From NCBI RefSeq assembly GCF_004366035.1, contig NZ_SOEE01000002.1:186001-250000 (forward strand): a stretch of DNA of 64,000 nucleotides, written 5' to 3'. A program made the translations under genes and the position numbers. Source of the DNA: Cytobacillus oceanisediminis. Its GTDB lineage: Bacteria > Bacillota > Bacilli > Bacillales > Cytobacillaceae. Within the stretch, counting starts at the first letter, position 1. Each line of letters begins with the position of its first letter. The notes beneath the pieces are model-generated. The model ran no database searches and was not told where the DNA came from. It saw nothing but the letters and a program-made list of their open reading frames with translations. Positions 234 to 45,745 of the stretch are shown here, piece after piece.

Positions 234-268
234 AAGTTATGAACGATCCCGAAAGGAGTGTGGGAACC

Positions 269-1798: not shown

Positions 1799-1814
1799 TT
1801 AGGAGGAAATAAAA

Positions 1815-2108
1815 ATGGCTAGAGAATTAACTGCATTAGGAATGATTGAAACGAAAGGACTGGTTGCTTCAGTGGAAGCTGCTGACGCTATGGTGAAGGC
1901 TGCGAATGTTCATTTAGTTGGAAAGGTGCATGTAGGAGGCGGTATTGTAACAGTCCTTGTGCGTGGTGATGTAGGTGCTGTTAAAGCGGCAACTGATGCG
2001 GGAGCTGCAGCAGCACAGCGTGTTGGAGAATTGAAATCTGTTCATGTCATTCCTCGTCCTCATAACGAATTGGAGAGCATTCTTCCAAAAATTGATGCAG
2101 AGCTTTAA
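1815..2108 (+). CDS. BMC-H hexameric shell protein (PduA/EutM type)
   Basis: A 97-residue single BMC domain with the standard pattern [29 protein letters not shown], followed by [19 protein letters not shown] and a final HVIPRPH. It should assemble into the hexamers that tile the shell facets. Start ATG is preceded by TTAGGAGGAAAT. It lies 17 bp after the aldehyde dehydrogenase and 30 bp before pduL. The residue before the pore loop is typical, so nothing suggests a special cofactor. Whether it is called EutM or PduA cannot be settled by sequence alone. Confidence 0.93.
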
Positions 2109-2138
2109 AACAAGATTACTAAGTTAGGAGCTTAAATC

Positions 2139-2792
2139 ATGAACGAGCAAGCCATTCAATCGATTGTAGAGGAAATAGTCACAAGGCTAACTGGTTCCTC
2201 AGGAAAAGATCATTCAATTCCAATGGCTGTCTCTGCCCGGCACTGTCATTTAAGTCAAAGAGATTTGGAGATTCTTTTTGGATCAGGCTATCAGCTTACC
2301 AAAAAAGCCGATTTATCTCAGCCTGGCCAATTTGCTGCTAACGAAACGATAACCATCGCAGGACCAAGAGGAAGCCTTGAAAAAGTGCGCGTTCTTGGTC
2401 CTGCCCGCAATATAACCCAGGTAGAGGTCAGCCGTACAGATTCGATCAAACTGGGGTTGAACCCCCCGCTTCGCGAATCCGGGAATATAGAAGGATCTTC
2501 TCCTGTTACTCTGATAGGACCCAAGGGCAGCATTTATAAAAAAGAAGGTCTTATTATTGCACAGGCACACATTCATATGGCTCCGGAAGATGCTGAAACC
2601 TTTGGTGTGAAAAATGGGGAATACGTCAAAGTTGAGGCAGTGGGAGAACGTCCCATATCCTTTGGAAATGTGTTAATTAGAATCTCACCCCGGTATAGAC
2701 TTGAAATGCATATTGATACTGATGAAGCCAATGCAGGATTGATTACCGGAAAAACAGCAGGCAGGTTAGTAAGGCAAGAGGAAAGCATATGA
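2139..2792 (+). CDS. pduL: PduL-type phosphate acyltransferase
   Basis: Converts the acyl-CoA made by the neighbouring dehydrogenase to acyl phosphate, recycling CoA inside the compartment. The first 19 residues (MNEQAIQSIVEEIVTRLTG) form an amphipathic helix that fits an N-terminal encapsulation peptide. Two PduL repeats follow: VSARHCHLS near residue 32, with a zinc-binding His pair, and AQAHIHMAPEDA near residue 142, then a conserved DTDEANAG near 193. The length of 217 residues is normal. The stop overlaps the next start by 4 bp (ATGA), implying coupled translation. This is the non-Pta-type enzyme typical of Eut/Pdu compartments. Confidence 0.93.
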   Translation: MNEQAIQSIVEEIVTRLTGSSGKDHSIPMAVSARHCHLSQRDLEILFGSGYQLTKKADLSQPGQFAANETITIAGPRGSLEKVRVLGPARNITQVEVSRTDSIKLGLNPPLRESGNIEGSSPVTLIGPKGSIYKKEGLIIAQAHIHMAPEDAETFGVKNGEYVKVEAVGERPISFGNVLIRISPRYRLEMHIDTDEANAGLITGKTAGRLVRQEESI

Positions 2793-3463
2793 TTGACAGG
2801 CATGTAATTGAGCAAATAGTTGAAGAAGTAGTGAAAAATCTATTAGGTGCCAAATCTGCCTCAAATTCTAAAACAAAACATAATATCCTCGCAGTCGGAG
2901 ATTTAGGGAAAGTCGATAAAAATCTATTAGAAGTGTTAGAGGAAAACTGGAATGTCCTTCCTTATGACTTTAGGGAAGAAGCTGAGCTGCATACTGTAAT
3001 GAGGGTTATTTTTCTTGACGCTTCCCAGGACTTGTTTGTGAAAGGGGCACTGGGCATTTGTGATACACCGGAAAGCGAGCTTCTTTCAGCCTGTATTATT
3101 GATTATGTCCCTGTTACCTTAATTCCGAAAACGAAACTTTATAAAATTCTGAATGGAGAGAAAAAAACAAACGGGGAGTATTTTTCAAGTTTAATGGAGT
3201 ATAAGGAAAAGCTGTTAAAGTTTGGGGTTGAAATCAATAGCCTGCAGGATTTTGCAGCTCCAAAGCCTATCAGGGCAGATCAGCCAGACTCAAAGAAGCT
3301 GATTACCCAAAGAGATGTTCAAGAATGCAAAATGAATGAAATCCTCGCTGATAAACAGACCATTATAACACCTTTAGCACGTGATACAGCACGGGAATTG
3401 GGAAAAAGCATCATTGTAATGGATACAAAAGGGGCTGAAAACACATGGAAATGGGAATGGTAA
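2789..3463 (+). CDS. Microcompartment-associated protein of unknown function with encapsulation helix
   Basis: A 224-residue protein starting with MIDRHVIEQIVEEVVKNLLG, an amphipathic helix very like the one at the start of PduL, so it is probably cargo. The middle region has no motif I recognise. The C-terminal part (LITQRDVQECK, then TIITPLARDTARELG) resembles the small uncharacterised proteins found in ethanolamine operons of Gram-positive bacteria and the tail of EutQ/EutJ-like proteins. The start overlaps pduL by 4 bp, and the end overlaps eutN by 19 bp. Function is unknown; a structural or cofactor role inside the shell is only inference. Confidence 0.75.
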   Translation: MIDRHVIEQIVEEVVKNLLGAKSASNSKTKHNILAVGDLGKVDKNLLEVLEENWNVLPYDFREEAELHTVMRVIFLDASQDLFVKGALGICDTPESELLSACIIDYVPVTLIPKTKLYKILNGEKKTNGEYFSSLMEYKEKLLKFGVEINSLQDFAAPKPIRADQPDSKKLITQRDVQECKMNEILADKQTIITPLARDTARELGKSIIVMDTKGAENTWKWEW

Positions 3464-3717
3464 TCGGCAATGTATGGGCCACTAGAAAAGAGGATGATTT
3501 AACTGGCCTGAAATTTTTGGTTGTCGAGCCTCATGGTCTTTCAGCAGAAAAATCATTCGTCGCGGTTGACCGTATTGGGGCAGGGGTCGGTGATCAAGTT
3601 CTCGTTACGCGTGGAAGTTCGGCTTCTAATATGTCCGGGGATATAAGATTGCCAATTGATGCTTTGATTATTGGAATTATCGATTCTGTTGACGTTGAAA
3701 AGAAAGAGGTGAAATAG
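3445..3717 (+). CDS. eutN: BMC-P pentameric vertex protein (EutN/CcmL)
   Basis: A 90-residue EutN/CcmL protein with the family pattern MVIGNVWATRKEDDLTGLKFLVV, GAGVGDQVLVTRGSSA and a final DALIIGIIDSV. These pentamers cap the vertices of the polyhedral shell. The start lies within the end of the previous gene (19-bp overlap); ATG at 3445 and 3451 are both possible. The next gene begins 1 bp after the stop. Presence of hexamer, trimer and pentamer genes together means the operon can build a closed shell. Confidence 0.93.
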   Translation: MEMGMVIGNVWATRKEDDLTGLKFLVVEPHGLSAEKSFVAVDRIGAGVGDQVLVTRGSSASNMSGDIRLPIDALIIGIIDSVDVEKKEVK

Positions 3718-3718
3718 A

Positions 3719-4105
3719 ATGGCAAGAGCACTTGGCATGATTGAAACAAGAGGGCTGATAGGGTCCATTGAAGCAGCAGATGCCATGCTGAAAGCTGCCG
3801 ATGTTACACTGGTGAAGCAGGAAAAAGTGGACGCCGCCTTAGTAACGGTATTGGTTCAGGGGGATGTAAGTGCTGTTCAGGCTGCTGTTGATGCAGGTAA
3901 GGAAGCAGCAGCCAGAGTGGGTGAACTCGTGTCAGCTCATGTTATACCTCATCCTGATGAAGATATCAAGAAAGCTTTATTAGATGACAGGAAACCAAAG
4001 GAAATTAAAAAAGAAACAGCTCCTGAAGCACCCTCCGTAAAAAAGGGAGGAAGCAAAAAGAAACTGGTATCTTCGGCGGAGCTGGATCACGTTGAAGATA
4101 AATAG
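3719..4105 (+). CDS. BMC-H shell protein with charged C-terminal tail
   Basis: Residues 1-90 form a BMC-H domain (ALGMIETRGLIGSIEAADAMLKAADVTLV, TVLVQGDVSAVQAAVDAG, HVIPHPDE) that is a clear paralogue of the one at 1815. Residues 91-128 are a Lys-, Glu- and Ser-rich tail, including KKGGSKKKL, with no recognisable fold. Similar tails are seen in PduK/EutK-like shell proteins. The tail could face the cytosol or bind cargo; that is inference. The start is 1 bp after eutN, so the two are translated together. Confidence 0.9.
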   Translation: MARALGMIETRGLIGSIEAADAMLKAADVTLVKQEKVDAALVTVLVQGDVSAVQAAVDAGKEAAARVGELVSAHVIPHPDEDIKKALLDDRKPKEIKKETAPEAPSVKKGGSKKKLVSSAELDHVEDK

Positions 4106-4141
4106 AGTACTCCACTAGTATGATGAAATGGAGGAACAGCC

Positions 4142-5092
4142 ATGACTTTTAAGAGAAGAAAGATTGCCGTAATAGGGTCAGGCTTTACTGGTGCGACAGC
4201 AGCACTTATGCTGGCCCAAAAAGAATTGGGAGACATAATTTTAGTAGACATACCTTCACAGACGAACCCAACAAAAGGCAAGGCCCTTGATATGCTTGAA
4301 GCTGGACCGGTTCAGCGCTTCAATGCCAGCATAACCGGCACTTCAAGTTATGAAGACATACAAGATGCGGATTTAGTATTGATTACGGCAGGAATGCCAA
4401 GAAAACCCGGAATGAGCAGGGACGATCTAGTCGCTGTAAATGAGAAGATTATGATAGAAGTTTCTCAAAATATAAAAACATACGCCCCGGAAAGCTATAT
4501 CATTGTATTAAGTAATCCTGTCGATGCAATGACCTATGTCTGCTATAAAACAACTGGTTTTCCGAAAAATAGGGTAATCGGCCAATCGGGTGTATTGGAT
4601 ACAGCCCGATTTAATACGTTTGTGGCTCAAGAGCTGGGTGTCTCCATTGAAGATATTTCAGGTTTTGTGCTGGGCGGTCATGGAGATGATATGGTTCCGC
4701 TTGTCAGATATTCATATGCTGGCGGCATTCCGCTGGAGAAAATTCTCCCTGCCGACCGAATCGAAGCGATTGTGGAAAGAACCAGAAAAGGCGGAGGAGA
4801 AATTGTAAATCTGCTTGGCCAGGGAAGTGCCTATTATGCTCCAGCAGCTTCAATGGTTGAAATGGCTGAATCGATTCTGAAAGATAAAAAACGAATCCTG
4901 CCTTCAATTGCCTATTTAGAAGGTGAGTATGGATACAGTAACATCTATCTGGGAGTGCCTGCAATCCTGGGCGGAAATGGAATAGAAAGTGTCATTGAAA
5001 TTCCATTGACTGCCGATGAGAAAAAAGCACTGGATCAATCTGTTAAGTCTGTACAAAATGTAATGAGCATACTTGAAACAGCCAAAGCGTAA
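4142..5092 (+). CDS. mdh: Malate/lactate dehydrogenase family protein linked to the BMC operon
   Basis: A 316-residue NAD-dependent dehydrogenase very like Bacillus Mdh. It has a Rossmann motif [11 protein letters not shown], the substrate loop [16 protein letters not shown] with the arginines of malate dehydrogenase, [12 protein letters not shown], and the catalytic [10 protein letters not shown]. It begins 36 bp after the shell gene with TGGAGG before the ATG, and a strong terminator follows, so it closes the operon. A TCA-cycle Mdh normally sits with citZ and icd, so this is probably a second copy serving the compartment, for example to regenerate NAD+. No encapsulation helix is evident, so it may work outside the shell. 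Confidence 0.9.
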
Positions 5093-5643: not shown

Positions 5644-6419
5644 GGATTAACGACGAAATCGAGGGCAGTAAGACGAAAATGGTAGTTAATCTGATGGATT
5701 AACGACGAAATCGAGTGCAGAAAGGCGAAAATGGTAGTTAATCGCATGGAATAACGGCGAAACTGAGTGCAGAAAGGCGAAAATGGTAGTTAATCTGATG
5801 GATTAACGACGAAATCGAGTGCAGAAAGGCGAAAATGGTAGTTAATCTGATGGATTAACGACGAAATTGAGTGCAGAAAGGCGAAAATGGTAGTTAATCG
5901 CATGGAATAACGACGAAATCGAGTGCAGAAAGGCGAAAATGGTAGTTAATCGCATGGATTAACGACGAAATTGAGTGCAGAAAGGCGAAAATGGTAGTTA
6001 ATTGCATGGATTAACGACGAAACTGAGGGCAGAAAGGCGAAAATGGTAGTTAATCTGATGGATTAACGACGAAATGGAGGGCAGAAAGGCGAAAATGGTA
6101 GTTAATCTGATGGATTAACGACGAAATGGAGGGCAGAAAGACGAAAATGGTAGTTAATCGCATGGATTAACAACGAAATCGAGTGCAGTAAGACGAAAAT
6201 GGTAGTTAATCGCATGGATTAACAACGAAATCGAGGGCAGAAAGACGAAAATGGTAGTTAATCGCATGGATTAACGACGAACTCGAGGGCAGAAAGGCGA
6301 AAATGGTAGTTAATCGCAGGATTAACGACGAAATCGAGGGCAGTAAGACGAAAATGGTAGTTAATCGCATGGATTAACGACGAAATTGAGGGCAGTAAAG
6401 CGAAAATGGTAGTTAATCA
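5644..6419. repeat. Fifteen tandem copies of a 52-bp noncoding repeat
   Basis: Units begin with GGATTAACGACGAA at 5644, 5696, 5748, 5800, 5852, 5904, 5956, 6008, 6060, 6112, 6164, 6216, 6268, 6319 and 6371. All are 52 bp except unit 13, which has lost one base. Each joint reads GTTAATC-N5-GATTAAC, a perfect 7-bp inverted repeat with a 5-base loop (GCATG or TGATG), so a row of 14 equal hairpins can form. The core carries GAGTGCAGAAAGGCGAAAATGG with a few substitutions. Since 52 is not a multiple of three and stops recur, it is not coding. Units vary by point changes shared between neighbours, suggesting repeated duplication. Confidence 0.95.
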
Positions 6420-6662: not shown

Positions 6663-6678
6663 TTGGCACGGAAATTGC
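6663..6678 (+). promoter_or_regulatory. Sigma-54 promoter of the aminotransferase unit
   Basis: TTGGCACGGAAATTGC matches the -24/-12 consensus TGGCAC-N5-TTGC perfectly (GG at 6665-6666, GC at 6677-6678). It lies 51 bases before the aminotransferase start. Half-sites GTTTCA (6575) and GAAAC (6608, 6616) lie 45-90 bases upstream and may bind the sigma-54 activator encoded at 8745. A near-palindrome CCTTTGTACAAAAGG (about 6629-6643) lies closer in. Confidence 0.88.
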
Positions 6679-6728
6679 ATCATAACTCATTAGCACGATA
6701 TAAACCAGAAACGATAGGGGAGGAAGCA

Positions 6729-7895
6729 ATGTTTGAAGAAAAATTGGATTTAAGATTACCGGGGCCAGTTCAGGTTCCGAAAGAAATACAGCGTGCCATG
6801 CTAAGAAGTTTCGATCATCCCATGATGGATTACCGGAATCCAGCCTTCCAGGATGTACTTCAGGAAACGACTGAAAAGTCCAAAATGATATTCCAGACTG
6901 AAAACCTGGTGATCCCTCTTACCTCAAGCGGAGCCTCCGCTCTTGAAACAGCTATTATTAATACGGTTGGTCCCAATGATACGATCATCCTTTGCGTAGT
7001 CGGCTATTTTGGTGAGTACCTTCAGGGAATTACAGACCATATCGGCTGCAAAACCGTCCGGGTTGATGCGGAATGGGGAAAGATTGCAGATCCTGAAGAT
7101 GTGAGAAAAGCATTAAAGGAAAATCCTGAGGCAAAAGCTGTTTTTGCGACACATTGTGAAACATCCACCTCTGCAATCAACAACATAAAAGAGATTGCAG
7201 CAGTTGTAAAAGAAACAGATGCCATATTCCTTGTTGATGCGGTCAGCTCGATTGTCGGAACACCCCTGTATATGGATGAATGGGGTATTGATATAGTTGC
7301 AACTGGAGGACAGAAAGCATTAATGCTGCCTCCCGGACTTGCATTGATAACCTTGAGTGAAAAAGCCTGGAATGCTGTAAATAATCATCAGTGTCCATCC
7401 TTTTATTTTGACCTTAAACTTTATAAAAAAGGACTGGAATCAGGAACTGGAACACCTTATACGCCAAATATATCACTTGTATGCGGACTGCTTGAGGCCT
7501 GCAATATGATAGAAAAAAGCGGAGGAATAGAAGCTGAATACAAAAGACATGCTGCACTTCGGGATATGACAAGGGCAGGGGTGAGGGCATTGGGTCTTGA
7601 TTTGCTGGTGGATGACTCGGCTGCCAGTCCAACCCTGACAGCCGTAAAATTAAATAATGCCGATGAATTCAGAAAGATGATGCGGGAAGAATTCCATATC
7701 GCATTGGGAGGCGGTCTTGGAAAGGTGAAGAATCAGATTTTGCGTCTCGGCCATATGGGGTATACGGATGCGGCAGATATGCTGAAGATGTTTGCTGCAA
7801 TGGAGCTTGCTTTAAAAAAGAGCGGATACGAAGTAGAGTTAGGTGCAGGAGTTTCCGCCGCACAGCGGCATTGGCTCGAAAATCCATTCTGCTAA
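6729..7895 (+). CDS. Class V aminotransferase (alanine/serine-glyoxylate type)
   Basis: A 388-residue PLP enzyme of the alanine-glyoxylate, serine-pyruvate and PucG group. The PLP lysine is in GGQKALMLPPGLA, about residue 196. VDAVSSIVG (Asp about 170) and SSGASALETAI are also family motifs. It probably transfers an amino group to glyoxylate or a related oxoacid; GlcD/GlcF in the same region could supply glyoxylate from glycolate. The start is the ATG at 6729 after AGGGGAGG. The longer open frame to 6642 runs through the sigma-54 promoter and is not coding. The exact donor and acceptor cannot be read from sequence. Confidence 0.87.
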   Translation: MFEEKLDLRLPGPVQVPKEIQRAMLRSFDHPMMDYRNPAFQDVLQETTEKSKMIFQTENLVIPLTSSGASALETAIINTVGPNDTIILCVVGYFGEYLQGITDHIGCKTVRVDAEWGKIADPEDVRKALKENPEAKAVFATHCETSTSAINNIKEIAAVVKETDAIFLVDAVSSIVGTPLYMDEWGIDIVATGGQKALMLPPGLALITLSEKAWNAVNNHQCPSFYFDLKLYKKGLESGTGTPYTPNISLVCGLLEACNMIEKSGGIEAEYKRHAALRDMTRAGVRALGLDLLVDDSAASPTLTAVKLNNADEFRKMMREEFHIALGGGLGKVKNQILRLGHMGYTDAADMLKMFAAMELALKKSGYEVELGAGVSAAQRHWLENPFC

Positions 7896-7923
7896 ATTTC
7901 TGGTCCTAAGGAGACGTGAGCGG

Positions 7924-8622
7924 GTGAATATATTTGAAAAACGACTCGCCGAACTGGCAAATCTCCCTTCAGTTATTCCAGGGGATCAGATCCAGGTGAC
8001 ACCAGATTTCCTATTCGTCAGCGGCCAAAATTCACTTAATGTTATCAAAGCATTTAACAGACAAGGTTACAAAAACGCAAAAAATCCAGCCAAGATTCTG
8101 TTTTCTCTTGGAGGTGCAGAAAATGAAGCCATCCGTAAGTTCTGTATAGGAAAAGGAATAAGACTAATAGATTGCGATTTGTCCCAATATTACCGTTCAG
8201 AGAATATTCCGATGAATGGAATGGTCATTGCAGGAATAGATGAGGATATTAAGGGTCTGGGAGGAAGGGGGGCCATTCCCATTGTTATTTCTCCGGATTC
8301 AATGGCGGCTTGCCTGGCAGCCGGATCATTTAGTATGTTCATACCTGAAACGACTTATATTGAAATCAACGGAGCTTTAACCGGAGAAGGAAACGGAAAA
8401 TGGCTCTGCACACATCTGCTGGACATTTTTGAAGACAGTTTAATAGGAAATGCAGTGATTATAGGAGGTACGGTTTTTGAACAGCTGAATGATGAGGACC
8501 TAAAGGATCTATCCTCTTTTTTTCAGCTCTCCGGCACAGCAGCGGGGATGTGTTCACCAGTGGGCCCGCTTGGCCAGGTTGAAAGCGTGATTAAAATAAA
8601 GGCAGAAACTATTCGGATCTAA
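7924..8622 (+). CDS. Half-length aconitase/LeuC-like protein lacking the iron-sulfur ligands
   Basis: A 232-residue protein starting at GTG 7924 (AAGGAGACG upstream). The order of segments follows the N-terminal half of LeuC/aconitase: FEKRLAELA, PGDQIQVTPDFLFV, an IRKFCIGKGIRLIDC segment, PMNGMVIAGIDED where real enzymes have GDSHT, then FIPETTYIEINGAL and a FQLSGTAAGMCSP end. The C-terminal half with the three Fe-S cysteines is absent, and nothing resembling it follows. So it is probably not a dehydratase itself. It may bind a carboxylate or act as a subunit. It lies 28 bp after the aminotransferase, which favours a maintained gene over a fragment. Confidence 0.6.
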   Translation: MNIFEKRLAELANLPSVIPGDQIQVTPDFLFVSGQNSLNVIKAFNRQGYKNAKNPAKILFSLGGAENEAIRKFCIGKGIRLIDCDLSQYYRSENIPMNGMVIAGIDEDIKGLGGRGAIPIVISPDSMAACLAAGSFSMFIPETTYIEINGALTGEGNGKWLCTHLLDIFEDSLIGNAVIIGGTVFEQLNDEDLKDLSSFFQLSGTAAGMCSPVGPLGQVESVIKIKAETIRI

Positions 8623-8744: not shown

Positions 8745-10643
8745 ATGTCCGAAATTGCCATTTTAACCCCCATTGACGCGCTGATACAGGTTTCAAAGGA
8801 AGCTGCGAAAAAAACAGGAGAAGATGTCGCGATAAGAAAAGTGAGCTTCCGAAATGCAATTGCAGCTGCTAAAGAATTTGAAAAATCCGGCACAGAAGTA
8901 ATCATCAGCAGAGGAACCCTGGGATTAAAGCTCATTGAGTCCGACCTTGGCATTCCCGTCGTGCAGATTCCCATAACTGGATATGACCTGCTCCGAACTA
9001 TTAAAGAAGCACAAAAACTCGGACAGAAGATTGGAATAGCCGACACCCGGGATGTTTTGCAGGGGATCCAAACAATTGAATCTGTGCTGGGTTTTTCGAT
9101 TGAAAAGCATAGCGTAATTGTGCCTGAGGAAGCTGAAGCAGCCGTCGAGGCTCTCAGCAAAAAAGAGATAGATGTCCTCATTGGCAAGAGTATTTTTACA
9201 AACAAAGTCAAAAATGATTCGATAAAAACAGTGATATTAACGTCTGGAGAGGAATCGGTCATCCAGGCCATTCTTGAAGCAAGAAGCCTGATTGAAGTAA
9301 GGCGCACAGAATTGAAACGAACCAAGGAACTCCAGGCCATTCTTGATTTTATTGCTGATGGGGTAATAGCTGTGGATGAACAAGGGATTATTACAGTATG
9401 CAATCCATCCGTTTACAGCATCCTAAACCTTCCCTATGATTCGGTTATCGGCAAGTCGATTGATGATATACTCGTTAATTCACAAATGAAAAAAGTTCTT
9501 TCGACTGGTAAGGAAGAACTGAACCGTATCCAGGATGCCAATGGTGTAAAAGTAGTTGCAAATCGAATACCCATCAGGCACGAGCAAAAGGTATTTGGGG
9601 CTGTCTGTACATTTCAGGAGGTTCATAGACTTCAGCAGCAGGAGCAGGAAATCCGCAAAAAGCTCCTTCATCGCGGTCATGTCACGAAATACAGTCTAAA
9701 TAATATTGTCGGGAAAAGCGAGATGTATCAAAAAGCGATCGAAAAGGTGAAGAAATACTCACAGGTGGATTCTACTGTTCTCCTAACGGGTGAAACGGGT
9801 GTGGGAAAAGAAGTATTCGCCCATTTAATCCATAGCTTCAGCAAGCGGACGGAAGGGCCATTCGTAGCAGTGAATTGTGCGGCCATCCCTGAAAACCTGC
9901 TGGAAAGCGAATTGTTCGGCTACGTCGAAGGAGCCTTTACGGGAGCGAAAAAGGGAGGAAAAACAGGATTATTTGAATTGGCTCATCAGGGAACCATCTT
10001 CCTTGATGAAATTGGCGAACTCGCTGAATCCTTACAGGCCCAGCTCCTTAGGGTTTTGCAGGAAGGGGAAGTGATGCGGATTGGGGATGAAAGAGTGATC
10101 CCCATTAATATTCGGGTCATCGCTGCCTCGAACCGTGACTTTGAGAATATGGTGGAAGATGGGAGCTTCCGGGCTGATTTGTATTATCGCCTTAATATCC
10201 TTGACATCCCAATTCCGTCTTTGCGTGAAAGGATACCTGATATTCCATTGTTATGCGATTTTTTCATAAAAGAATTGGAACCAGGCATTCGGAGAAATAT
10301 TAAGGGCTTCACTGCCGAAGCTATGAAAATTATGCAAAGCTATCATTGGCCGGGGAATATACGCCAGCTAAGGAACATTGTCGAAAGAGCGATGATTCTT
10401 TCCCCTGAGAATTTGATTGATTCAGAAACTGTTTTAGCTGCAGGCGGGAAAGACTTTTCCAAATTACATTTTATAAAACAACACAGCATTAATGAAGAAA
10501 TAGATGAAGAAACAAAGCTTCAAAACTATGAGAAAGAGTATATTCTGAACGTGCTGAAGCAAGTTAACGGCAATAAAACAGAAGCCGCAAAAATTCTTGG
10601 GATCGGCAGGACGACCCTCTGGCGAAAAATAAATAGTTTATAA
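8745..10643 (+). CDS. PrpR-type sigma-54-dependent transcriptional activator
   Basis: A 632-residue enhancer-binding protein. Residues 10-190 form a PrpR N-terminal sensory domain ([27 protein letters not shown] region). A PAS domain spans about 200-310. The AAA+ module spans about 330-570 with Walker A GETGVGKE and the sigma-54 contact loop [11 protein letters not shown] Fis-type helix-turn-helix ([16 protein letters not shown]) is at the end. PrpR_N proteins sense small metabolites such as 2-methylcitrate. Start ATG 8745 has GAGGTG upstream. It is embedded between the aminotransferase unit and glcD and is the natural activator of the sigma-54 promoters at 6663 and 13624. Confidence 0.9.
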
Positions 10644-10655
10644 GGAGGAGAAAGA

Positions 10656-12092
10656 ATGAATGAAACAATGACACCGCCTCCGCTGGATGATAATGTGATA
10701 ACCCGATTAAGAAATATCTTCGGAGACGACCGGCTATTAACCAATTGCACTGATATGATGACCTACTCCTATGATGCATCCTTTGAAACTCAGCTCCGTC
10801 CGAAACTGCCTCAAGTGGCCGTTATTGCGCTGTCAACTGAAGAGGTCAGTGAATGTGTCCGGCTGGCCAACGAATTTAAAATCCCATTATACCCGAGAGG
10901 GGCAGCCACCGGGCAAACAGGAGGAGCCGTCCCGGTTAAAGGCGGTATTATGCTGGATTTATCGAAAATGAATCGAATACTGGAGATTGATCACAGGAAT
11001 ATGCAGGCAGTGATTGAGCCGGGAGTCATCCAAAATGATTTAAATGAGGCTTTAAAGCCTTATGGACTAAGGTTTCCTCCTGACCCAGGAAGCGCAAATA
11101 TGTGCACTGTCGGAGGAATGGTTTCCAACAATTCAAGCGGACTGAGGGCAGTCAAATACGGTGTTACCCGCCATTATGTCCTGGGAATGGAAGTCGTACT
11201 CCCCACTGGTGACATCATTGTGACTGGCGGGGCAAAATCGAAGGCGCTTAAATCGGTTTCCGGCTACGACCTTGCACATTTAATGATCGGTTCAGAAGGC
11301 ACTCTTGGAATTGTAACGCGCCTTCGTCTAAAATTATTGCCGCTCCCTGTCACAAGAGGTATTGTACTATGCTCATTTGAAAGATTGGAAGATGCAGGAG
11401 AGGCGGTTAACGCTGTTTTTTCTTCAGGCCTGCAGCCTTCAGCCATCGAAATCATGGACTTTAATTGTACGAAGGCTGTCAACATGATGAAGCCTGAGCT
11501 GAATCTTCCTCTGGATAATGAAGCTATTCTTGTTTTTGAAGTGGATGGTGCCAAAGAGGAGGTAAGCTCCCAGGTGAACCGCCTCAGAAAGGTAGTTGAA
11601 AAATTCACGAATTATATAAAGTTCAGCGATGAGCCGGATGAGTGTGAAAAGCTCTGGCAGGCAAGGAAGCTTGTTGGTGCTGCTGTTGGACTATTGAAGC
11701 CTGGCGGTTTCCGGGTGTATGGCGGCGAAGACATCTGTGTGCCAATTTCAAGACTCCCTGAAACACTGCGGGAGATTCATAATATCTCAGAACGATATGG
11801 CATCATCTGCGGAATATACGGCCATGTTGGTGATGGAAATATGCATACCGGACCGGTAGTGAACATGAATAATGAAATGGAAATGGAAAATGTGCAGAAA
11901 ATGATCGACGATATTCATGAACTGGCAATTAAAATGGAGGGAACGACGACTGCTGAGCATGGAGTTGGAATTGTCCGTGCCAAATATATGGATGTAGAGC
12001 ATGGGCCTGCCATGGAAGTGATGCGAGCTATTAAAAGGACGCTCGATCCAAATAATATTTTAAATCCAGGCAAGATGGCATTGCCTAACTAG
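10656..12092 (+). CDS. glcD: FAD-linked 2-hydroxyacid oxidase subunit GlcD
   Basis: A 478-residue FAD enzyme with a PCMH-type FAD-binding domain (LYPRGAATGQTGGAVPVKGG; GGMVSNNSSGLRAVKYG) and a FAD-oxidase C domain ending GHVGDGNMH and EHGVGIVRAKY. It oxidises glycolate or D-lactate-type hydroxyacids to the 2-oxoacid. Only GlcD and GlcF are present, as in B. subtilis YsfC/YsfD, without a GlcE. It starts 12 bp after the sigma-54 activator with AAGGAGGAG. Electrons would pass through GlcF to the quinone pool. Together with the aminotransferase this suggests glycolate to glyoxylate to glycine, but other substrates are possible. Confidence 0.88.
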   Translation: MNETMTPPPLDDNVITRLRNIFGDDRLLTNCTDMMTYSYDASFETQLRPKLPQVAVIALSTEEVSECVRLANEFKIPLYPRGAATGQTGGAVPVKGGIMLDLSKMNRILEIDHRNMQAVIEPGVIQNDLNEALKPYGLRFPPDPGSANMCTVGGMVSNNSSGLRAVKYGVTRHYVLGMEVVLPTGDIIVTGGAKSKALKSVSGYDLAHLMIGSEGTLGIVTRLRLKLLPLPVTRGIVLCSFERLEDAGEAVNAVFSSGLQPSAIEIMDFNCTKAVNMMKPELNLPLDNEAILVFEVDGAKEEVSSQVNRLRKVVEKFTNYIKFSDEPDECEKLWQARKLVGAAVGLLKPGGFRVYGGEDICVPISRLPETLREIHNISERYGIICGIYGHVGDGNMHTGPVVNMNNEMEMENVQKMIDDIHELAIKMEGTTTAEHGVGIVRAKYMDVEHGPAMEVMRAIKRTLDPNNILNPGKMALPN

Positions 12093-12108
12093 GCAGGAGG
12101 TGAATGAA

Positions 12109-13443
12109 ATGAAATTGCTGACGGCGGAAGAATCCATGCAAACTTGTGTGCGCTGCGGTGCCTGCCGCAATGTTTGTCCTACATTAAATATCACAGGCAG
12201 GGAAGCTGATGGTCCCAGGGGCAGAGTATTGATGGCAAGAAGTCTGATCGAGGGCACTATCCCCGTAAATCAGGAAATCAAAGATCAGCTCGATCGCTGC
12301 CTGCTTTGCTCAGCCTGTGTGGATGCTTGCCCTATTGATGTACAGGTTCCTGATATCGTCATGCTCGCCAAGGAGCGAATAGCAGCAGCGGCTGAAGCAC
12401 CTGTACAAACGGATATTAAAAAAACTGCATATCCGGCAAGGACTTTTAAAGATTACTTCTTTGACCATGTTCTTGCCAACCAAAAAAGGCTTAATACTGT
12501 TGGCAATCTTCTGTGGTTTTATCAAAAAAGCGGGCTTCAGTATGTAACTAGAGGACTGGGCATTTTGAAATTCTTCCCAGAACAGATGAGGCAGATGGAA
12601 AGAATCACGCCTTCCATTTTGCCGCCTTCAGGGAGGAAACATCATCCTGAGTTTACTCCGAGGACTGATGAAGAAAAGGCAGCAAGGGGCCGGGTAGCCT
12701 TTTTCCATGGCTGTATTATGGATGTCATGTTCAGGGAAACAAACGATAATTCCATTAAATTGCTGTCGAAGACTGGATTTGATGTGGTAACCCCTAAAGC
12801 GCAGATGTGCTGTGGAGCACTCCACCATCATAGCGGAAAAAAAGACAGGGCCATTGAATTGGCCAAAGCGAATATACAGGCTTTTGAAGAAGCAAATGTG
12901 GATTATATTATTACCAATGCCGGAGGTTGCGGTGCTGCACTTGCGGAATATGCGGATTTATTCCGGGGGGATTACCATTGGCTGGAGAGGGCGAAAGCAT
13001 TCTCTGCCAAAATAAGGGATATCAGTGAGATCATATATGAAAAAGGAGAAATGCCTGTTACTGCCGGCAGAGGTGAAAGAGTGACCTATCAGCCTTCCTG
13101 CCATCTGCAATATGTAATGAAGGTGAAGGATGCTCCGGCTAAATTGGTGAAGGGAATTCCAAACTCGGAATATGTGGATCTTCCTGAAAAGAAATATTGC
13201 TGCGGGTCTGCAGGAATTTATAATTTATTGCAGCCAAATCTTGCTAATGAAATATTGGATAAGAAAATGTCCAGAGTCAAAGAAACTGAATCAGCTGTTC
13301 TAATAACAGCCAATCCAGGGTGTTACCTCCAAATGAAACTGGGGGTTTATCGTGAAGGAATGGAGGATCAGATAGAAACAAAGCATGTTGCCGACTATCT
13401 GATGGAGTCAATTGAAAGGGCAGAATCTGCAGGAAACCAATAA
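12109..13443 (+). CDS. glcF: Iron-sulfur subunit GlcF
   Basis: A 444-residue partner of GlcD. Two 4Fe-4S ferredoxin motifs are visible near the N terminus (CVRCGACRNVCP and CLLCSACVDACP). Two CCG domains follow (GCIMDVM with MCCGALHHHSG; SCHLQYV with YCCGSAGIYN), as in heterodisulfide-reductase-like subunits. It should carry electrons from the flavin to the membrane. Start ATG 12109 has GGAGG eight bases upstream; a GTG at 12100 overlaps that site and is unlikely. It follows glcD by 16 bp. Confidence 0.88.
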   Translation: MKLLTAEESMQTCVRCGACRNVCPTLNITGREADGPRGRVLMARSLIEGTIPVNQEIKDQLDRCLLCSACVDACPIDVQVPDIVMLAKERIAAAAEAPVQTDIKKTAYPARTFKDYFFDHVLANQKRLNTVGNLLWFYQKSGLQYVTRGLGILKFFPEQMRQMERITPSILPPSGRKHHPEFTPRTDEEKAARGRVAFFHGCIMDVMFRETNDNSIKLLSKTGFDVVTPKAQMCCGALHHHSGKKDRAIELAKANIQAFEEANVDYIITNAGGCGAALAEYADLFRGDYHWLERAKAFSAKIRDISEIIYEKGEMPVTAGRGERVTYQPSCHLQYVMKVKDAPAKLVKGIPNSEYVDLPEKKYCCGSAGIYNLLQPNLANEILDKKMSRVKETESAVLITANPGCYLQMKLGVYREGMEDQIETKHVADYLMESIERAESAGNQ

Positions 13444-13804: not shown

Positions 13805-14794
13805 ATGAAATTAAAGAGGATTTCGATTTTGTCTCTTGCAATTGCATTGGTATTCTTTTTGCAGGCATGTAATTCTTCACCTCAGGAAGCAAGCTCGGAG
13901 GAAAAGAAAAGCACAGGCAATTATCCCGAGCGGCAGATTGAAATTATTGTTGGCTTTGGTGCGGGCGGCGGGAGTGACAATTTTGCAAGGGCCATTGCAA
14001 AAGAACTTAAAGATATTCTTGGTGTAAACATAAATGTTGTGAATATGCCTGGTGCGGCGGGGATCAATTCAGCTGACCATGTGGCTAGGCAGCCGGCTGA
14101 TGGCTATACCATCTGGTCGGCAACATCCAATCATCCCGTAAATATTGCAGCAGGTGTGGAAAAAAATGATTTGACCAAATTAACCTCTGTCGGAAGGGTG
14201 CAAAATGATACCATGACCCTCCAAGTAAAAAGCGATGGCAAGTTCAAGGATATTGATGATCTTATCGCAAAGGCTAAGGAAAAACCTGGTGAGATCACGA
14301 TAGGCGGTACAGGTTCAGCCGGCTTTGATGAACTGGTAGTCAGACAGTTTGAAAAATCTACTGGAACAAAGTTTAATTATATCTCATTTGAAGGTTCTGG
14401 AGAGATGACAGCAGCACTGCTCGGGGGACATATCGATGTCATTGCAGAGGAGCCAGGCCCATCGATTGCCCAGCTGGAAAGCGGAGATATTAAGATGCTG
14501 ATTGCCTTTACTGAAGAGAAAATGGAAGGCTTTGATGACGTCCCGATTTCAACTGAAATGGGGATAGATGTAACAGACGGCCAGGGCAGAGGCTTCATGG
14601 TCCACGCAGATACACCGCCTGAAATCATTTCAGCGCTTGAAAAAGCCCTTGAGGAAGCGAAAGATCGCCCGGACTATAAAGAGTATGAAAAAGCCAATTA
14701 CCTGCACCTTCGGGATGGCTGGCTAAATTCAGAAGAATATAATGCCGAATTTGAAAAACTAATCGACACTTACGGCTCTCTATTAAAAGAATGA
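13805..14794 (+). CDS. tctC: Tripartite tricarboxylate transporter substrate-binding lipoprotein TctC
   Basis: A 329-residue extracytoplasmic binding protein. A lipoprotein signal peptide ends in the lipobox LQAC with Cys22. The mature part has the TctC/Bug pattern YPERQIEIIVGFGAGGGSDNF, NMPGAAGINSADHVA and PADGYTIW. It captures a carboxylate for the TctA/TctB membrane subunits encoded at 18026-20074. It is read from the sigma-54 promoter at 13624 and followed by a terminator, so it is probably made in excess over the membrane parts. The ligand is unknown; di- and tricarboxylates are typical. Confidence 0.9.
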   Translation: MKLKRISILSLAIALVFFLQACNSSPQEASSEEKKSTGNYPERQIEIIVGFGAGGGSDNFARAIAKELKDILGVNINVVNMPGAAGINSADHVARQPADGYTIWSATSNHPVNIAAGVEKNDLTKLTSVGRVQNDTMTLQVKSDGKFKDIDDLIAKAKEKPGEITIGGTGSAGFDELVVRQFEKSTGTKFNYISFEGSGEMTAALLGGHIDVIAEEPGPSIAQLESGDIKMLIAFTEEKMEGFDDVPISTEMGIDVTDGQGRGFMVHADTPPEIISALEKALEEAKDRPDYKEYEKANYLHLRDGWLNSEEYNAEFEKLIDTYGSLLKE

Positions 14795-15064: not shown

Positions 15065-15718
15065 ATGGTGCAAGGCCTGAAATTTACGCAGCCGCTTTAT
15101 CAGCAAATCTATGACATTATAAAAAGATCCATTTTGTCAGGTCAATTAAAGCCTGGTGAGAAGGTCAATGTTTCCCATATTGCGGAAAAATATAATATAA
15201 GCCGGACCCCGTTAAGAGAAGCGTTGCGCCAGCTGCAAATAGAGGGACTGCTGGTTCAGGATCAGCTGGGGCTTGCTATTGTAAAACTGGATGAAACTGA
15301 TTTTAAGGATTTATACGAAACTCGCATTATGCTGGAGCCTCAAATAATAGGAATTGTTTTGAAAACGATTACAAAAGAGCAGCTGAATAGCATTGAAGAA
15401 ACTCTTGAAAAAGCTGAAGATGCCTTTTTGGAAGGAAACCATCTACATTTACTTGAATGGAATGCTAAGTTTCATGATCGGCTCTTGGAAGCAAGCCCAA
15501 ACAAGCGGGCAGTGCACTTGCTGCAGCAAGTACGTTCATTTCTTTTGCTATACCGGGCCAATATCCTAAAAAACAATGAGCATAATAGAGAAATTCTTAA
15601 GGAACATAGCCAAATCCTTCATGCTCTTAAAGCCCGGGACGAGATAGCTGTCTATCAATCCGCAGAAAATCATCTGCGCAACGATCTGGAGCGCGGAATG
15701 AATATGATCCGTGAATAA
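15065..15718 (+). CDS. GntR-family regulator, FadR/FCD subfamily
   Basis: A 217-residue regulator. Residues 10-75 form the winged helix (YQQIYDIIKRSILSGQLKPGEKV, ISRTPLREALRQLQIEGLL). Residues 85-215 form an all-helical FCD ligand domain with the metal-binding pattern of Asp/His residues (YETRIMLEP, WNAKFHDRLLEAS, EHSQILHAL). Such proteins usually repress catabolic genes until an organic acid binds. It stands directly before the CoA-transferase and transporter genes and probably controls them. AAAGGAGG precedes the ATG. Confidence 0.88.
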   Translation: MVQGLKFTQPLYQQIYDIIKRSILSGQLKPGEKVNVSHIAEKYNISRTPLREALRQLQIEGLLVQDQLGLAIVKLDETDFKDLYETRIMLEPQIIGIVLKTITKEQLNSIEETLEKAEDAFLEGNHLHLLEWNAKFHDRLLEASPNKRAVHLLQQVRSFLLLYRANILKNNEHNREILKEHSQILHALKARDEIAVYQSAENHLRNDLERGMNMIRE

Positions 15719-15875: not shown

Positions 15876-17096
15876 TTGGGACCATTACAAGGAATGAAAG
15901 TCCTTGATGCATCGCAAATCATGGCTGGTCCGTATTGCACTATGGTCCTTGCAGATCTCGGTGCGGAAGTCATGAAAGTAGAGAAAGTGAACGGCGGAGA
16001 CGATTCCCGCCAAATGGGCCCATATGTAAATGGGGAATCTACTTGCTTTTTTCAAATAAACCGAAATAAAAAAAGCATAGCATTAAACCTTAAAACCAAA
16101 GAAGGAAAAGAAATCTTCTATCAATTGGCTAAAGAAGCAGATGTTGTGGTTGAAAATTACCGACCGGGAGTAACAAAATCACTTGGCATAGACTATGAAA
16201 GCCTAAAGAAGATTAATCCTGGGTTAGTCTATTGTTCTATCTCAGGTTATGGCCAGACTGGCCCTTATTCTCATAAGGGCGGGTTCGATCTGGTAGCCCA
16301 GGGAATGACAGGGCTTATGAGCATGACAGGAGAAAAAGGAATGCGGCCGATGAAATCCGGCATTGCCGTTTACGATATCGGGGCAGGCATAACTGCAGCC
16401 TACTCGGTTTTGGCAGCTTTTATCCATAAGATGAAGACAGGGGAAGGACAGCATGTGGATATTGCCCTGGCTGAGATTGGACTTCCATGGTTTACGTGGG
16501 AGGCAGGGGCCTATTTTGCCGAAGGAACGATACCGGAAGCAACCGGCTGGAGGCACCGTGTGTCTGCTCCTTATCAGGCTGTTAAAACAAAATCAGGTTA
16601 TATGATGCTTGGATGTGCCAATCAAAGGACCTGGGAAAGATTTTGCGAGGACGTTGCCGGAAAGCCTGAATGGCTGGCGGATCCGCGCTATAAAACCAAT
16701 TTATTGAGAAACAAACATGTGAGTGAGCTGGAAGAAGATATTGAGGCTGTATTAATGCATCAAGATACCCAGCATTGGATTGATCTCTGTGAAAAAGCAG
16801 GAGTACCTGCGGGACCAATCAACAACTTTGCAGAGGCGGTTCAGGATCCGCATTATGAAGCCAGAGGCATGATTCAGGAAGTGGAGCATCCATTAATAGG
16901 AAAAATGAAGATGATTGGCATTCCTGCAAAATTTTCAAAAACTCCAGGTGAGGTGAAAACCCCCTCTCCTCTCTTCGGACAGGACACGATTGAAGTGTTG
17001 AATGGTTTGGGGTATGACGAAGATTCCATAAGAAATTTAACAAAGTCCGGGACTGTGAAGACCATGGATGAAAGGCCCATCCTGAATAAAAAATAG
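15876..17096 (+). CDS. Type III (CaiB/BaiF) CoA-transferase
   Basis: A 406-residue family III CoA-transferase. Motifs: LDASQIMAGPYCTMVLADLGAEVMKVE at the N terminus, NRNKKSIALNL, and the likely catalytic aspartate at about 167 in VYDIGAGITAA. It moves CoA from a donor such as succinyl-CoA to an organic acid, here perhaps the acid imported by the Tct system. The start is TTG 15876 with GGGGTG upstream; the MGPLQGMKVLD beginning is typical for the family. It is followed after 19 bp by an enoyl-CoA hydratase. The exact acid is unknown. Confidence 0.88.
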   Translation: MGPLQGMKVLDASQIMAGPYCTMVLADLGAEVMKVEKVNGGDDSRQMGPYVNGESTCFFQINRNKKSIALNLKTKEGKEIFYQLAKEADVVVENYRPGVTKSLGIDYESLKKINPGLVYCSISGYGQTGPYSHKGGFDLVAQGMTGLMSMTGEKGMRPMKSGIAVYDIGAGITAAYSVLAAFIHKMKTGEGQHVDIALAEIGLPWFTWEAGAYFAEGTIPEATGWRHRVSAPYQAVKTKSGYMMLGCANQRTWERFCEDVAGKPEWLADPRYKTNLLRNKHVSELEEDIEAVLMHQDTQHWIDLCEKAGVPAGPINNFAEAVQDPHYEARGMIQEVEHPLIGKMKMIGIPAKFSKTPGEVKTPSPLFGQDTIEVLNGLGYDEDSIRNLTKSGTVKTMDERPILNKK

Positions 17097-17115: not shown

Positions 17116-17937
17116 ATGTCTAAGAATTTGGAAGCATTCAGCGGGGATAAGACGTACAGTGAACCGGTTTATCTTCAGGTTGAAGGAGATATTGCATTCA
17201 TATGCTTCAACCGGCCGGATAAAAGGAATGCCCTCAGTTATGAAATCTGGTTAAGGATTCCGCAGCTTATCGAGGAATGCGAAAATGATGCCAATGTAAA
17301 AGTAATCATTTTTAAAGGGACTGGATCTGCTGCTTTTTCGGCAGGCGCTGATATCAGCGAATTTAAGACGTTAAGGTATACCGCAGAAGGTGCTGAAAAG
17401 TATAACAAGGCAACGATGATAGCAGAAAAATCAATCATGGATGCATCAAAGCCAACGATTGCGATGATACAGGGTTTTTGTGTTGGCGGCGGATGTGAAA
17501 TTGCGGTTGCCTGTGATTTTAGATTCTCTGATGAACAGGGCAAGTTCGGCATTACTCCAGCAAAGCTTGGCCTAGTATACAATACACCGGGAACCAAAAA
17601 TGTTGTAGATCTTGTCGGCCCGGCGAAAGCCAAAGATATTCTTTACACAGGAAGGCTTCTGGATGCCGGGGAAGCGTATCAGATCGGTCTTATCGATCGT
17701 ATATATCCTGCAGGAGCCATTAAAGAAGAAACGGTCAGATATGCAGAGTTAATTTGCAGAAATGCCCAGCTGTCAGTCAGGGGTTCAAAAAAAATCATTA
17801 ATGAAGTGCTTGCCGGAGCCATTGAAGATTCACCTGAAACAGCCGAGCTTGTCATTGACTCGTTTCTTTCAGAGGATTATCGGGAAGGGGTGCGTTCATT
17901 TTTGGAAAAACGGAAGCCTGACTTTAAATATTCTTAA
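17116..17937 (+). CDS. Enoyl-CoA hydratase/isomerase family protein
   Basis: A 273-residue crotonase-fold protein. The CoA-binding and oxyanion-hole segments are FSAGADISEF (about residues 75-85) and IQGFCVGGGCEIAVACDFRF (about 117-137). Residues at the usual glutamate positions differ from classical hydratases (LGLVYNTPGTKNVV), so hydratase, isomerase or another crotonase activity are all possible. It follows the CoA-transferase by 19 bp, so it probably acts on the CoA ester made there. Confidence 0.85.
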   Translation: MSKNLEAFSGDKTYSEPVYLQVEGDIAFICFNRPDKRNALSYEIWLRIPQLIEECENDANVKVIIFKGTGSAAFSAGADISEFKTLRYTAEGAEKYNKATMIAEKSIMDASKPTIAMIQGFCVGGGCEIAVACDFRFSDEQGKFGITPAKLGLVYNTPGTKNVVDLVGPAKAKDILYTGRLLDAGEAYQIGLIDRIYPAGAIKEETVRYAELICRNAQLSVRGSKKIINEVLAGAIEDSPETAELVIDSFLSEDYREGVRSFLEKRKPDFKYS

Positions 17938-18025: not shown

Positions 18026-18532
18026 ATGCAGCTGGAACGAAATCTTTCAATAATCATAATAGTCTTTTCGTCTTTTTTTCTGGTTTTGTCACTCCAGGTG
18101 GAAAATAGGACAGGGAATTTCATTTCTGCAGGAACATGGCCAGCAGCTTTAATGATCCTGATGCTAATTCTATCGGTTATCCTGCTGATGAGGGCTCTAA
18201 AGGTGAAGAATGTTCAGAATATAAAGGGAGATGACAATGATTCAGCAGATGCAGATAATGAAGATAAGCTCGTTCATCCGAAAAAGTTCTTCCTCTTGTT
18301 TGCTGTTCTTGCAATCTATATCTTTATTCTAGGTTATGTTGGTTTTATTGCTGCGACGATTCTGGGGATTTTTGTAATGGCGCTTTTGTTTGGAATGAAA
18401 AGCTATATTCGAGCTCTGCTGACAGGTACTCTGGCAACTGCCGGTTCTATCGTGCTGTTTCCTATTTTATTGAATTTGCCTTTCCCGCGGGGAACCGGGA
18501 TTTTTTATTCACTTAGCTTGCTGTTTTATTAA
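18026..18532 (+). CDS. tctB: Tripartite tricarboxylate transporter small membrane subunit TctB
   Basis: A 168-residue membrane protein with four hydrophobic segments: two before and two after a central acidic loop (DDNDSADADNEDK, about residues 70-84). This is the expected layout of TctB. It pairs with TctA, which begins 21 bp downstream. RBS GGGGGGAT is close to the ATG. Confidence 0.85.
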   Translation: MQLERNLSIIIIVFSSFFLVLSLQVENRTGNFISAGTWPAALMILMLILSVILLMRALKVKNVQNIKGDDNDSADADNEDKLVHPKKFFLLFAVLAIYIFILGYVGFIAATILGIFVMALLFGMKSYIRALLTGTLATAGSIVLFPILLNLPFPRGTGIFYSLSLLFY

Positions 18533-18553
18533 TAGCCAACTTTAATAAAAGAG

Positions 18554-20074
18554 GTGAACTTAATGATAGAAGGACTTTTAGGCGGTTTTGGCAATCTTTT
18601 TCAGCCTTTTAATTTTTTCATTCTTATGGTCGGTGTCCTGCTTGGTTTCATTGGAGGAGGGATTCCGGGTATAAGCGGAACCATGCTGGTCATTATTCTT
18701 CTTCCTGTCAGTTATGCAATGGATCCGGCTGCAGCCTTTTTGCTGCTGACCTCCATTTATGCCACATCTGTTTTTTCAGGGTCCATAAGCGCTATTCTGT
18801 TTAGAACCCCAGGCACACCGGAAGCGGTGGCAACCGTTTTCGACGGGTATCCCATGGCCAAGAAGGGTGAAGGGGGGAAAGCCCTCGGAATTTCCATCTT
18901 CAGTTCTGCCACAGGGGGTGTCTTTGGAACGCTGGTATTAATCTTTTTGACGCCGCTGCTCGCCTCTTTTGCTCTAAGATTTTCGTCCCCGGAGTATTTT
19001 GCATTGGCACTAATGGGACTGACTGTAGTGGCTTCCTTGAGTGCAGGCAATCTGGTTAAGGGATTCATCGGTGTTTCCTTCGGATTGTTTATTGCCACTA
19101 TTGGCATCGATACAATGACCGGTGTGCCAAGATTCACCTTCGGATCAGGCCAGTTAATGTCGGGCATTGACTTCATCCCTGTTCTGATTGGATTATTCGC
19201 TATATCAGAGGTGCTGAGAAGAGTCCAGCAGGTCCACAAGGTGAATGCAAAGCAAAAGGTGAGTTCCGAACTTCCAAACTGGAATGTCATGAAACGGATA
19301 TCTGGCGTCATTGGACGTTCTTCTTTATTAGGTGTGTTTATTGGAATCCTTCCGGGAATAGGTGCAACTACTGCTGCCATGCTCAGCTACAGTGAAGCTG
19401 CACGGTGGTCAAAAAGATCAAAAGAATTTGGAACTGGAATTCCAGAAGGGGTTGCTGCACCCGAATCTGCCAATAATGCCGCCGCAATGGGTGCCATGGT
19501 TCCTTTGCTTTCCCTGGGAATTCCGGGAAGCGCGACAACTGCCATATTGCTCGGCGCCTTTATACTTCATGGAATCCAGCCGGGACCTTTGATGTTTTCA
19601 ACACAGGGTTCACTTATCTATACCATCCTGATTGGGCTGCTTGTTGCAAACTTGCTGATCTTACTCATTGCCAAACCGTTTATTTCGGTATTCTCTAAGA
19701 TTTTGCAAGTGCCCTACACGATCATTGGACCACTCATCGTTCTCTTTTGTATTGTTGGCACATTCGCAGTCAGGAATTCGATTTTTGATGTGGCAATGAT
19801 GCTGGTATTCGGGATTATCGGCTACTATCTGGAAAACGCCAAATTCCCGCTGGCCCCCATCGTGCTTGGCGTTGTGCTCGGTCCCATTGCTGAAGACCAG
19901 TTCAGAAGGGCTATGCAAATGTCAAACAATGATATTTCCATCTTCTTCACACGGCCGATTGCCTTAACCTTCATCATTCTATCAATCATCAGTATTTTGT
20001 ATCCGCTGATTAATAAGTGGATTAAGAAGCGTAAAAACGATGCGAGCGGTACAGATCAAACTGTGGCTTCATAA
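18554..20074 (+). CDS. tctA: Tripartite tricarboxylate transporter large membrane subunit TctA
   Basis: A 506-residue integral membrane permease with about 11-12 hydrophobic helices and TctA motifs: GGGIPGISGTML, FRTPGTPEAVATVFDGYPMAKKGEGGKALG, GILPGIGATTAAMLSYSEA and VPLLSLGIPGSATTAILLGAF. It moves the TctC-delivered acid across the membrane with a cation gradient. In most bacteria the order is tctC-tctB-tctA; here tctC is separated by the regulator, CoA-transferase and hydratase genes. Confidence 0.92.
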   Translation: MNLMIEGLLGGFGNLFQPFNFFILMVGVLLGFIGGGIPGISGTMLVIILLPVSYAMDPAAAFLLLTSIYATSVFSGSISAILFRTPGTPEAVATVFDGYPMAKKGEGGKALGISIFSSATGGVFGTLVLIFLTPLLASFALRFSSPEYFALALMGLTVVASLSAGNLVKGFIGVSFGLFIATIGIDTMTGVPRFTFGSGQLMSGIDFIPVLIGLFAISEVLRRVQQVHKVNAKQKVSSELPNWNVMKRISGVIGRSSLLGVFIGILPGIGATTAAMLSYSEAARWSKRSKEFGTGIPEGVAAPESANNAAAMGAMVPLLSLGIPGSATTAILLGAFILHGIQPGPLMFSTQGSLIYTILIGLLVANLLILLIAKPFISVFSKILQVPYTIIGPLIVLFCIVGTFAVRNSIFDVAMMLVFGIIGYYLENAKFPLAPIVLGVVLGPIAEDQFRRAMQMSNNDISIFFTRPIALTFIILSIISILYPLINKWIKKRKNDASGTDQTVAS

Positions 20075-45143: not shown

Positions 45144-45745
45144 AGTCTCTTACCGGATTTACAGGCATAGTTGCTCCGCTTGATGCAGCAAATGTCGACA
45201 CAGATGCCATCATTCCAAAACAGTTTTTAAAAAGAATTGAAAGGACTGGATTTGGCGAATTCCTCTTCTACGAATGGCGATACGAAAATGGGGTGGAAAA
45301 ACCAGATTTCATTCTAAATCGAGAGCCCTACCGGCATGCACCCATTTTGCTGGCAAGGAAAAACTTTGGCTGCGGTTCATCCAGAGAGCATGCACCCTGG
45401 GCGCTTGGTGAATATGGGATTAAAGTGATCCTGGCACCCTCATTCGCTGATATTTTCTATAATAATTGTTTTAAAAATGGCATCCTGCCAGTTGCCTTGC
45501 CTGAAAAGGATATTGAAGTTTTATTTCAAAAAAGCAATGAATCACCTGGTTATCAGCTGAGGGTAGATTTAGAGAATCAAAGAATTGAAGACTCTTTCGG
45601 ATATATGGCCGAATTCGATATCGTTTCTTATCGAAAAGACCAGCTGTTAAAAGGGCTGGACGAAATCGGAGCAACCCTTCAATCAGCTGAATTAATAGAC
45701 TCCTTTGAATCGGCACATAAGATTTTCTATAAGCTGGAGATGTAA
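45140..45745 (+). CDS. leuD: Isopropylmalate dehydratase-type small subunit (LeuD-like)
   Basis: A 201-residue swivel-domain subunit with [31 protein letters not shown] and [43 protein letters not shown]. It completes the active site with the large subunit. Length and motifs equal those of bona fide LeuD. The start codon overlaps the large-subunit stop (ATGA). Confidence 0.9.

Follow-up and report, generated by a model that had tools for sequence, protein, structure and literature searches.

In the aconitase superfamily, the usual form is an iron-sulphur enzyme of three or four domains. IRP1/IRP2-type aconitase homologues, which have a regulatory role, are a precedent for the use of the aconitase fold in regulation. 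Aconitase X (AcnX), which belongs to the same superfamily as the protein described here, differs from it in keeping all four domains and the cluster (PMC8184944). A two-domain form that is under selection and has neither the cluster nor the catalytic residues would be unusual in this superfamily, and no description of a half-length aconitase was found in the literature searched.

The window that we analyzed, a 64,000-nucleotide stretch of Cytobacillus oceanisediminis DNA, contains a gene at 7924..8622 (+) for a 232-residue protein that corresponds to domains 1 and 2 of a LeuC-like large subunit. The gene has a GTG start, preceded in the sequence by an AAGGAG ribosome-binding site (7908..7913, +), and begins 28 bp after the stop codon of an aminotransferase gene. 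An upstream start at 7843, as in a longer listed frame, was rejected because relatives start M-N-x-x-E at 7924, as LeuC does. With its own start and translation signal, and its end before the cysteine domain, the gene is free-standing, as the preliminary description had claimed, and our analyses confirmed that its product is domains 1 and 2 of an isopropylmalate isomerase (IPMI)/homoaconitase-type large subunit.

Residues 1–209 of the half protein matched residues 1–221 of the 411-position NCBIfam model TIGR02086 (E 1.8e-8), at 33.5 bits, which does not reach the curated cut-off of 410 bits for this IPMI_arch family. A phmmer comparison with the IPMI large subunit 4nqy gave E 3.8e-5, a profile of the half family matched the Methanocaldococcus jannaschii IPMI large subunit at E 5.6e-20, and hhalign against the nearest full-length relative gave a probability of 99.7 (E 8.8e-27). 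The window copy had no match in a Pfam search at E<=1, while 13 of 15 half-family members matched Pfam Aconitase at that threshold (best 3.3e-7). Judging from these profile comparisons, the aconitase kinship of the half protein is real and well above chance level. An AlphaFold2 model built from 21 sequences had a mean pLDDT of 92.2 and a pTM of 0.87, and 229 of its 232 residues superposed on 4nqy (M. jannaschii IPMI large subunit) with a Z of 22.4 and an rmsd of 2.3. Other solved structures also matched, with Z of 21.2 for homoaconitase and 19.1 for residues 36–320 of mitochondrial aconitase. The most divergent copy (G1049, ~31% identity), modeled from half forms only to serve as a control, gave a pLDDT of 89.9 and a Z of 22.8 on 4nqy. 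Because the model, the structural matches and the half-only control agree, the half protein is predicted to be a complete domain 1+2 unit, with two alpha/beta domains set as in aconitase and IPMI. The aconitase fold is thus upheld with high confidence, and an absence of structural similarity to it is excluded.

To compare residues, 16 half copies were aligned with 28 full-length relatives; active-site positions follow mitochondrial aconitase numbering. The halves end just before the CTNGR...PGCGPC domain (domain 3), and therefore all three cysteine ligands of the [4Fe-4S] cluster (equivalents of C358, C421 and C424) are missing from 16 of 16 halves, while they are present in 28 of 28 full-length relatives. 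This bears out the earlier statement that the cluster ligands are lacking. Catalytic residues within the half have also changed. The equivalents of D100, H101, H147, S166, H167 and N258 were replaced or deleted, apart from single chance-like matches; the E262 equivalent was retained in five of 16 halves, and most copies have an acidic residue at the D165 position. No half copy has the complete set (D100, H101, H147, D165-S166-H167, N258 and E262). The preliminary description also noted GIDED in place of the motif, where GADSHT would be expected; this holds for the window copy but not as a fixed feature, as the position varies among relatives. Since almost every active-site residue tested is lost, the alignment speaks against aconitase-like chemistry, and the half protein is probably a pseudoenzyme, that is, a non-catalytic homologue.

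We considered whether an active dehydratase might be rebuilt with domain 3 (and LeuD) coming in trans from a separately encoded protein, as the fold comes to a clean end close to where domains 2 and 3 meet. The C-terminal half of the nearest full-length relative, used as a query against the same genome, matched no orphan C-terminal half there, only full-length LeuC-/AcnA-size frames and, by chance, the weak and unrelated L121. No LeuD small-subunit gene was noted in this operon at any locus that was read. As the residues lost include catalytic ones inside the half itself, such a split enzyme is very improbable.

The 16 intact halves form a single clade (100/99). Their nearest full-length relatives are LeuC-like proteins of ~390 aa from other Bacillota genomes that have GADGHV where GADSHT stands and all three cysteines (G442, G368, G321, G158, G431 and G927); no LeuD gene was adjacent at the loci examined. 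P124 is present in all 16 halves and in seven of seven proteins of the GADGHV group (including G231), and in none of the 21 other full-length proteins. At each of the five GADGHV loci that were read (G442, G368, G321, G158 and G927) a PrpR-type activator is nearby (42–44% identity), accompanied by GlcD (52% identity) in G321 and by a class-V aminotransferase (33% identity) in G442. GADGHV loci L046 (8911–10092), L055 (9042–10289), L113 (9229–10401), L114 (9257–10441) and L115 (8769–9989) have a PrpR-type activator and permeases, and four of them have 2-oxoacid oxidoreductase-like genes. As the tree of halves and full-length proteins has no root, and the halves sit on a long branch, the proposal that the half derives from the GADGHV clade draws mainly on P124 and gene context, which suggest such an origin. 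No description of LeuD-less GADGHV proteins was found in the literature searched; the clade represents a second unstudied branch, and may point to the ancestral function.

The genes around the half are all on the forward strand. Directly upstream is a class-V aminotransferase of the serine/alanine-glyoxylate, BhcA-like type (6729..7895), and downstream are an activator with PrpR_N, PAS and sigma-54 activator regions (8745..10643), which is the presumed operon regulator, a GlcD-type FAD 2-hydroxyacid dehydrogenase (10656..12092) and its GlcF-type iron-sulphur partner (12100..13443). These are followed by a TctC-like solute-binding protein of a tripartite carboxylate transporter (13805..14794; assigned by eye and context, with no family-model match), a GntR-type regulator (15065..15718; named by eye), a CaiB-type CoA-transferase (15876..17096), an enoyl-CoA hydratase family protein (17116..17937) and TctB- and TctA-like membrane proteins (18026..20074; named by eye). 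The matches of the aminotransferase and GlcD (serine/alanine-glyoxylate, BhcA-like, glycolate/D-lactate) suggest only 2-hydroxy/2-oxo acid chemistry, and the pathway probably serves to import and metabolize a 2-hydroxy/2-oxo carboxylate.

A sigma-54 (-24/-12) promoter, TTGGCACGGAAATTGCA (6663..6679, +), is located 66 bp 5' of the aminotransferase start and is conserved at all 19 syntenic loci. In each of these, including G605 and G1049, the form TTGGCAY-N5-TTGCW occurs 60–70 bp 5' of the aminotransferase start; for a looser 16-base sigma-54 pattern, 0.29 matches would be expected in the window. A second sigma-54 site is present 5' of the TctC-like gene in some genomes, and no inverted-repeat activator sites were found 5' of the sigma-54 promoter at the settings used. 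We infer that the half gene is co-transcribed with the aminotransferase from the sigma-54 promoter, and that the aminotransferase-half operon is under sigma-54/PrpR control.

The label of catabolic operon given earlier fits these genes but does not extend to the microcompartment genes upstream, which form a separate module. That the half operon is part of the microcompartment was ruled out, as the aminotransferase operon is located elsewhere in three genomes. Positions 239–5092 (also L019, L020, L047, L049 and L050) are the end of an ethanolamine-type microcompartment operon with an acylating aldehyde dehydrogenase, shell proteins, PduL and, as its last gene, a malate-dehydrogenase-family gene; eutB/eutC/eutL-like genes, identified by eye, lie 5' of it in relatives. 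A 52-bp tandem repeat of 14.9 copies (93% matches; 5644–6418) lies in the stretch that separates the malate-dehydrogenase-like gene from the aminotransferase promoter. In genus g305 (L092–L096) a TauE/SafE-like exporter is just 5' of the operon, and ComA-like (phosphosulfolactate synthase), CysH, Sat and CysC genes are nearby; a sulfolactate link considered on the basis of these last four was rejected, as they are not conserved as part of the operon. Elsewhere in the window, a full-length LeuC/LeuD pair at 43716–45745 has a CaiB-type CoA-transferase and an HMG-CoA-lyase-like gene as neighbors, and is possibly a catabolic paralogue not involved in leucine biosynthesis. A Ser/Glu-rich low-complexity protein of 680 aa (53324–55366, reverse strand) is encoded among spore-coat-like proteins.

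The gene order aminotransferase-half-PrpR-GlcD-GlcF is shared by 18 genomes, which represent three genera in two families. Among the 193 genomes of the family that were searched, 18 have the orthologous aminotransferase operon, and 17 of those carry the half gene, 12 of them from the genus of the window and five from genus g305. G1049, from another family, has the same gene order with the half, and a TRAP-like transporter downstream. A scan of genome contigs gave six loci, all in the firmus/oceanisediminis group or in records with the same operon, the profile search covered genomes within the phylum, and no plasmid copies were found at E 1e-3. Sixteen of the 18 copies are intact. The G012 copy has a frameshift at a T7 homopolymer run, while the G035 copy is broken by frameshifts, as are many neighboring genes, which suggests an assembly error. 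In G605 the order is aminotransferase-PrpR-GlcD-GlcF, with PrpR coming directly after the aminotransferase; a PrpR+GlcD tree places G1049 outside G605 (90/90), and loss of the half gene in G605 is therefore favored. The G605 PrpR is more diverged than that of G1049, which is not so for AT5, GlcD and GlcF, a single weak hint of a link between the half and PrpR. The expectation that the gene would be retained in syntenic loci of other bacteria was borne out by the 18 genomes that carry it, and a local pseudogene or frameshift is ruled out by the stop-free ORF and its 16 intact orthologues.

Pairwise dN/dS between intact copies was 0.17–0.36, and 0.47 against the frameshifted G012 copy, compared to mostly 0.02–0.13 for the operon neighbors; these values were computed by the simple NG86 method, with saturation in some of the dS estimates. 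The half gene is constrained, yet ~five times more loosely than its neighbors. Within the genus, dN/dS was 0.19 at residues 99–150, 0.16 at 171–226 and 0.61 at 61–98, and 400 neutral simulations yielded no stop-free ORF at d of at least 0.3. The half is also the fastest evolving of the operon genes compared, with 29–41% identity across genera against 85–89% for the aminotransferase. By these estimates, the half gene is maintained by selection, though loosely. A slowly decaying relic, in which a full-length enzyme that had become useless was shortened to its N-terminal half and has since been weakly constrained, with no distinct role, would account for the fivefold higher dN/dS, the absence of the gene from G605, where the operon tree suggests loss, and the G012 frameshift. 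Full-length relatives do exist, but simple decay from them disagrees with the 16 intact copies across three genera and two families and with dN/dS well below 1, at ~0.16–0.19 in the core and tail. Newly fixed half-specific invariants (e.g., G214, G217, Q218 and K224), the compact and confidently predicted fold, and the G035 breaks being shared with many neighboring genes also count against a relic, which we consider possible but rather unlikely.

Conservation specific to the halves is densest in a tail, S211-x2-G-P-x-G-Q-V-E-S-x-I-K (S211, G214, P215, G217, Q218, V219, E220, S221, I223, K224 and K226), with P27, S33, E147 and D171-S172-L173-x-G175 located N-terminal to it. These invariant or near-invariant residues, and the position of the gene beside an aminotransferase and a hydroxyacid dehydrogenase, would fit a new cluster-independent enzyme (e.g., a lyase, isomerase or racemase) with a site formed from S33, E147, D171-S172-L173-x-G175 and S211...Q218. 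However, few invariant catalytic-type side chains are left (E5, E147, S211, Q218 and K224), an enzyme would not usually evolve this fast when its pathway partner stays at 85–89% identity, and the G605 operon persists with no half gene. A new enzyme of this type is an improbable explanation.

We hypothesize, with a probability of about 0.5, that a single truncation gave rise to a cluster-less pseudoenzyme that is co-expressed with the aminotransferase and binds a ligand in an accessory or regulatory capacity. Its ancestor would have been a LeuC-like protein, akin to the LeuD-less GADGHV clade, whose C-terminal half (domain 3, with the cluster) was lost, leaving a stable two-domain lobe capable of neither [4Fe-4S] cluster binding nor aconitase chemistry. 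The gene would be transcribed with the aminotransferase from the sigma-54 promoter, and the product of the PrpR-type activator gene directly downstream would presumably drive this promoter. The half protein would most likely have an accessory, non-catalytic role: as a partner of PrpR or the aminotransferase that binds a metabolite, it would adjust how the 2-hydroxy/2-oxo acid of the operon is used. The non-catalytic role is read from the lost active-site residues, and ligand binding and the choice of partner from context. The accessory reading is supported by the fold, the loss of ligands and active site, the single clade, retention, constraint, and co-occurrence with PrpR and the promoter; counting against it, a new active site would be an equally good explanation for the newly invariant tail. 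As the half evolves fastest of the genes compared and the G605 operon has no copy, its contribution may be small. More tentatively, the domain 1–2 lobe may have been recruited as a new intracellular carboxylate sensor working with the PrpR-type activator or the aminotransferase; alternatively, it may have evolved a new active site and work as an enzyme that needs no cluster. The half protein, PrpR, one sigma-54 promoter and the aminotransferase make up a small, testable system.

In comparison to known systems, the half protein most resembles the archaeal-type IPMI/homoaconitase large subunit (TIGR02086; MJ0499, PDB 4nqy), with which it shares the domain 1–2 fold across its whole length, an MNIIEK-type N-terminal start, conserved glycines and the P141 motif. 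Unlike that protein, it has no domain 3, cluster cysteines, catalytic residues or adjacent LeuD, and scores far below the family cut-off. The GADGHV proteins share P124 and a nearby PrpR-type activator with the half, along with GlcD in one locus and the aminotransferase in one, but are full length (~390 aa) with the three cysteines and the D100, H101, H147 and E262 equivalents kept. The large subunits of G261, G102 and G294, which are among the best-scoring full-length matches with a LeuD neighbor, differ from the half in having the GADSHT and cluster motifs intact; their loci presumably resemble 2,3-dimethylmalate dehydratase/nicotinate-fermentation clusters, based on the set of neighboring genes. 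Aconitase X (PDB 7cnp/7cnr) is a more distant match to the half model (Z ~7.9, against ~22 for IPMI), the half being without domains 3 and 4. IRP1/IRP2-type homologues are multi-domain, whereas the half protein has two domains only; if our hypothesis is true, the N-terminal lobe is a stable module able to take a new job.
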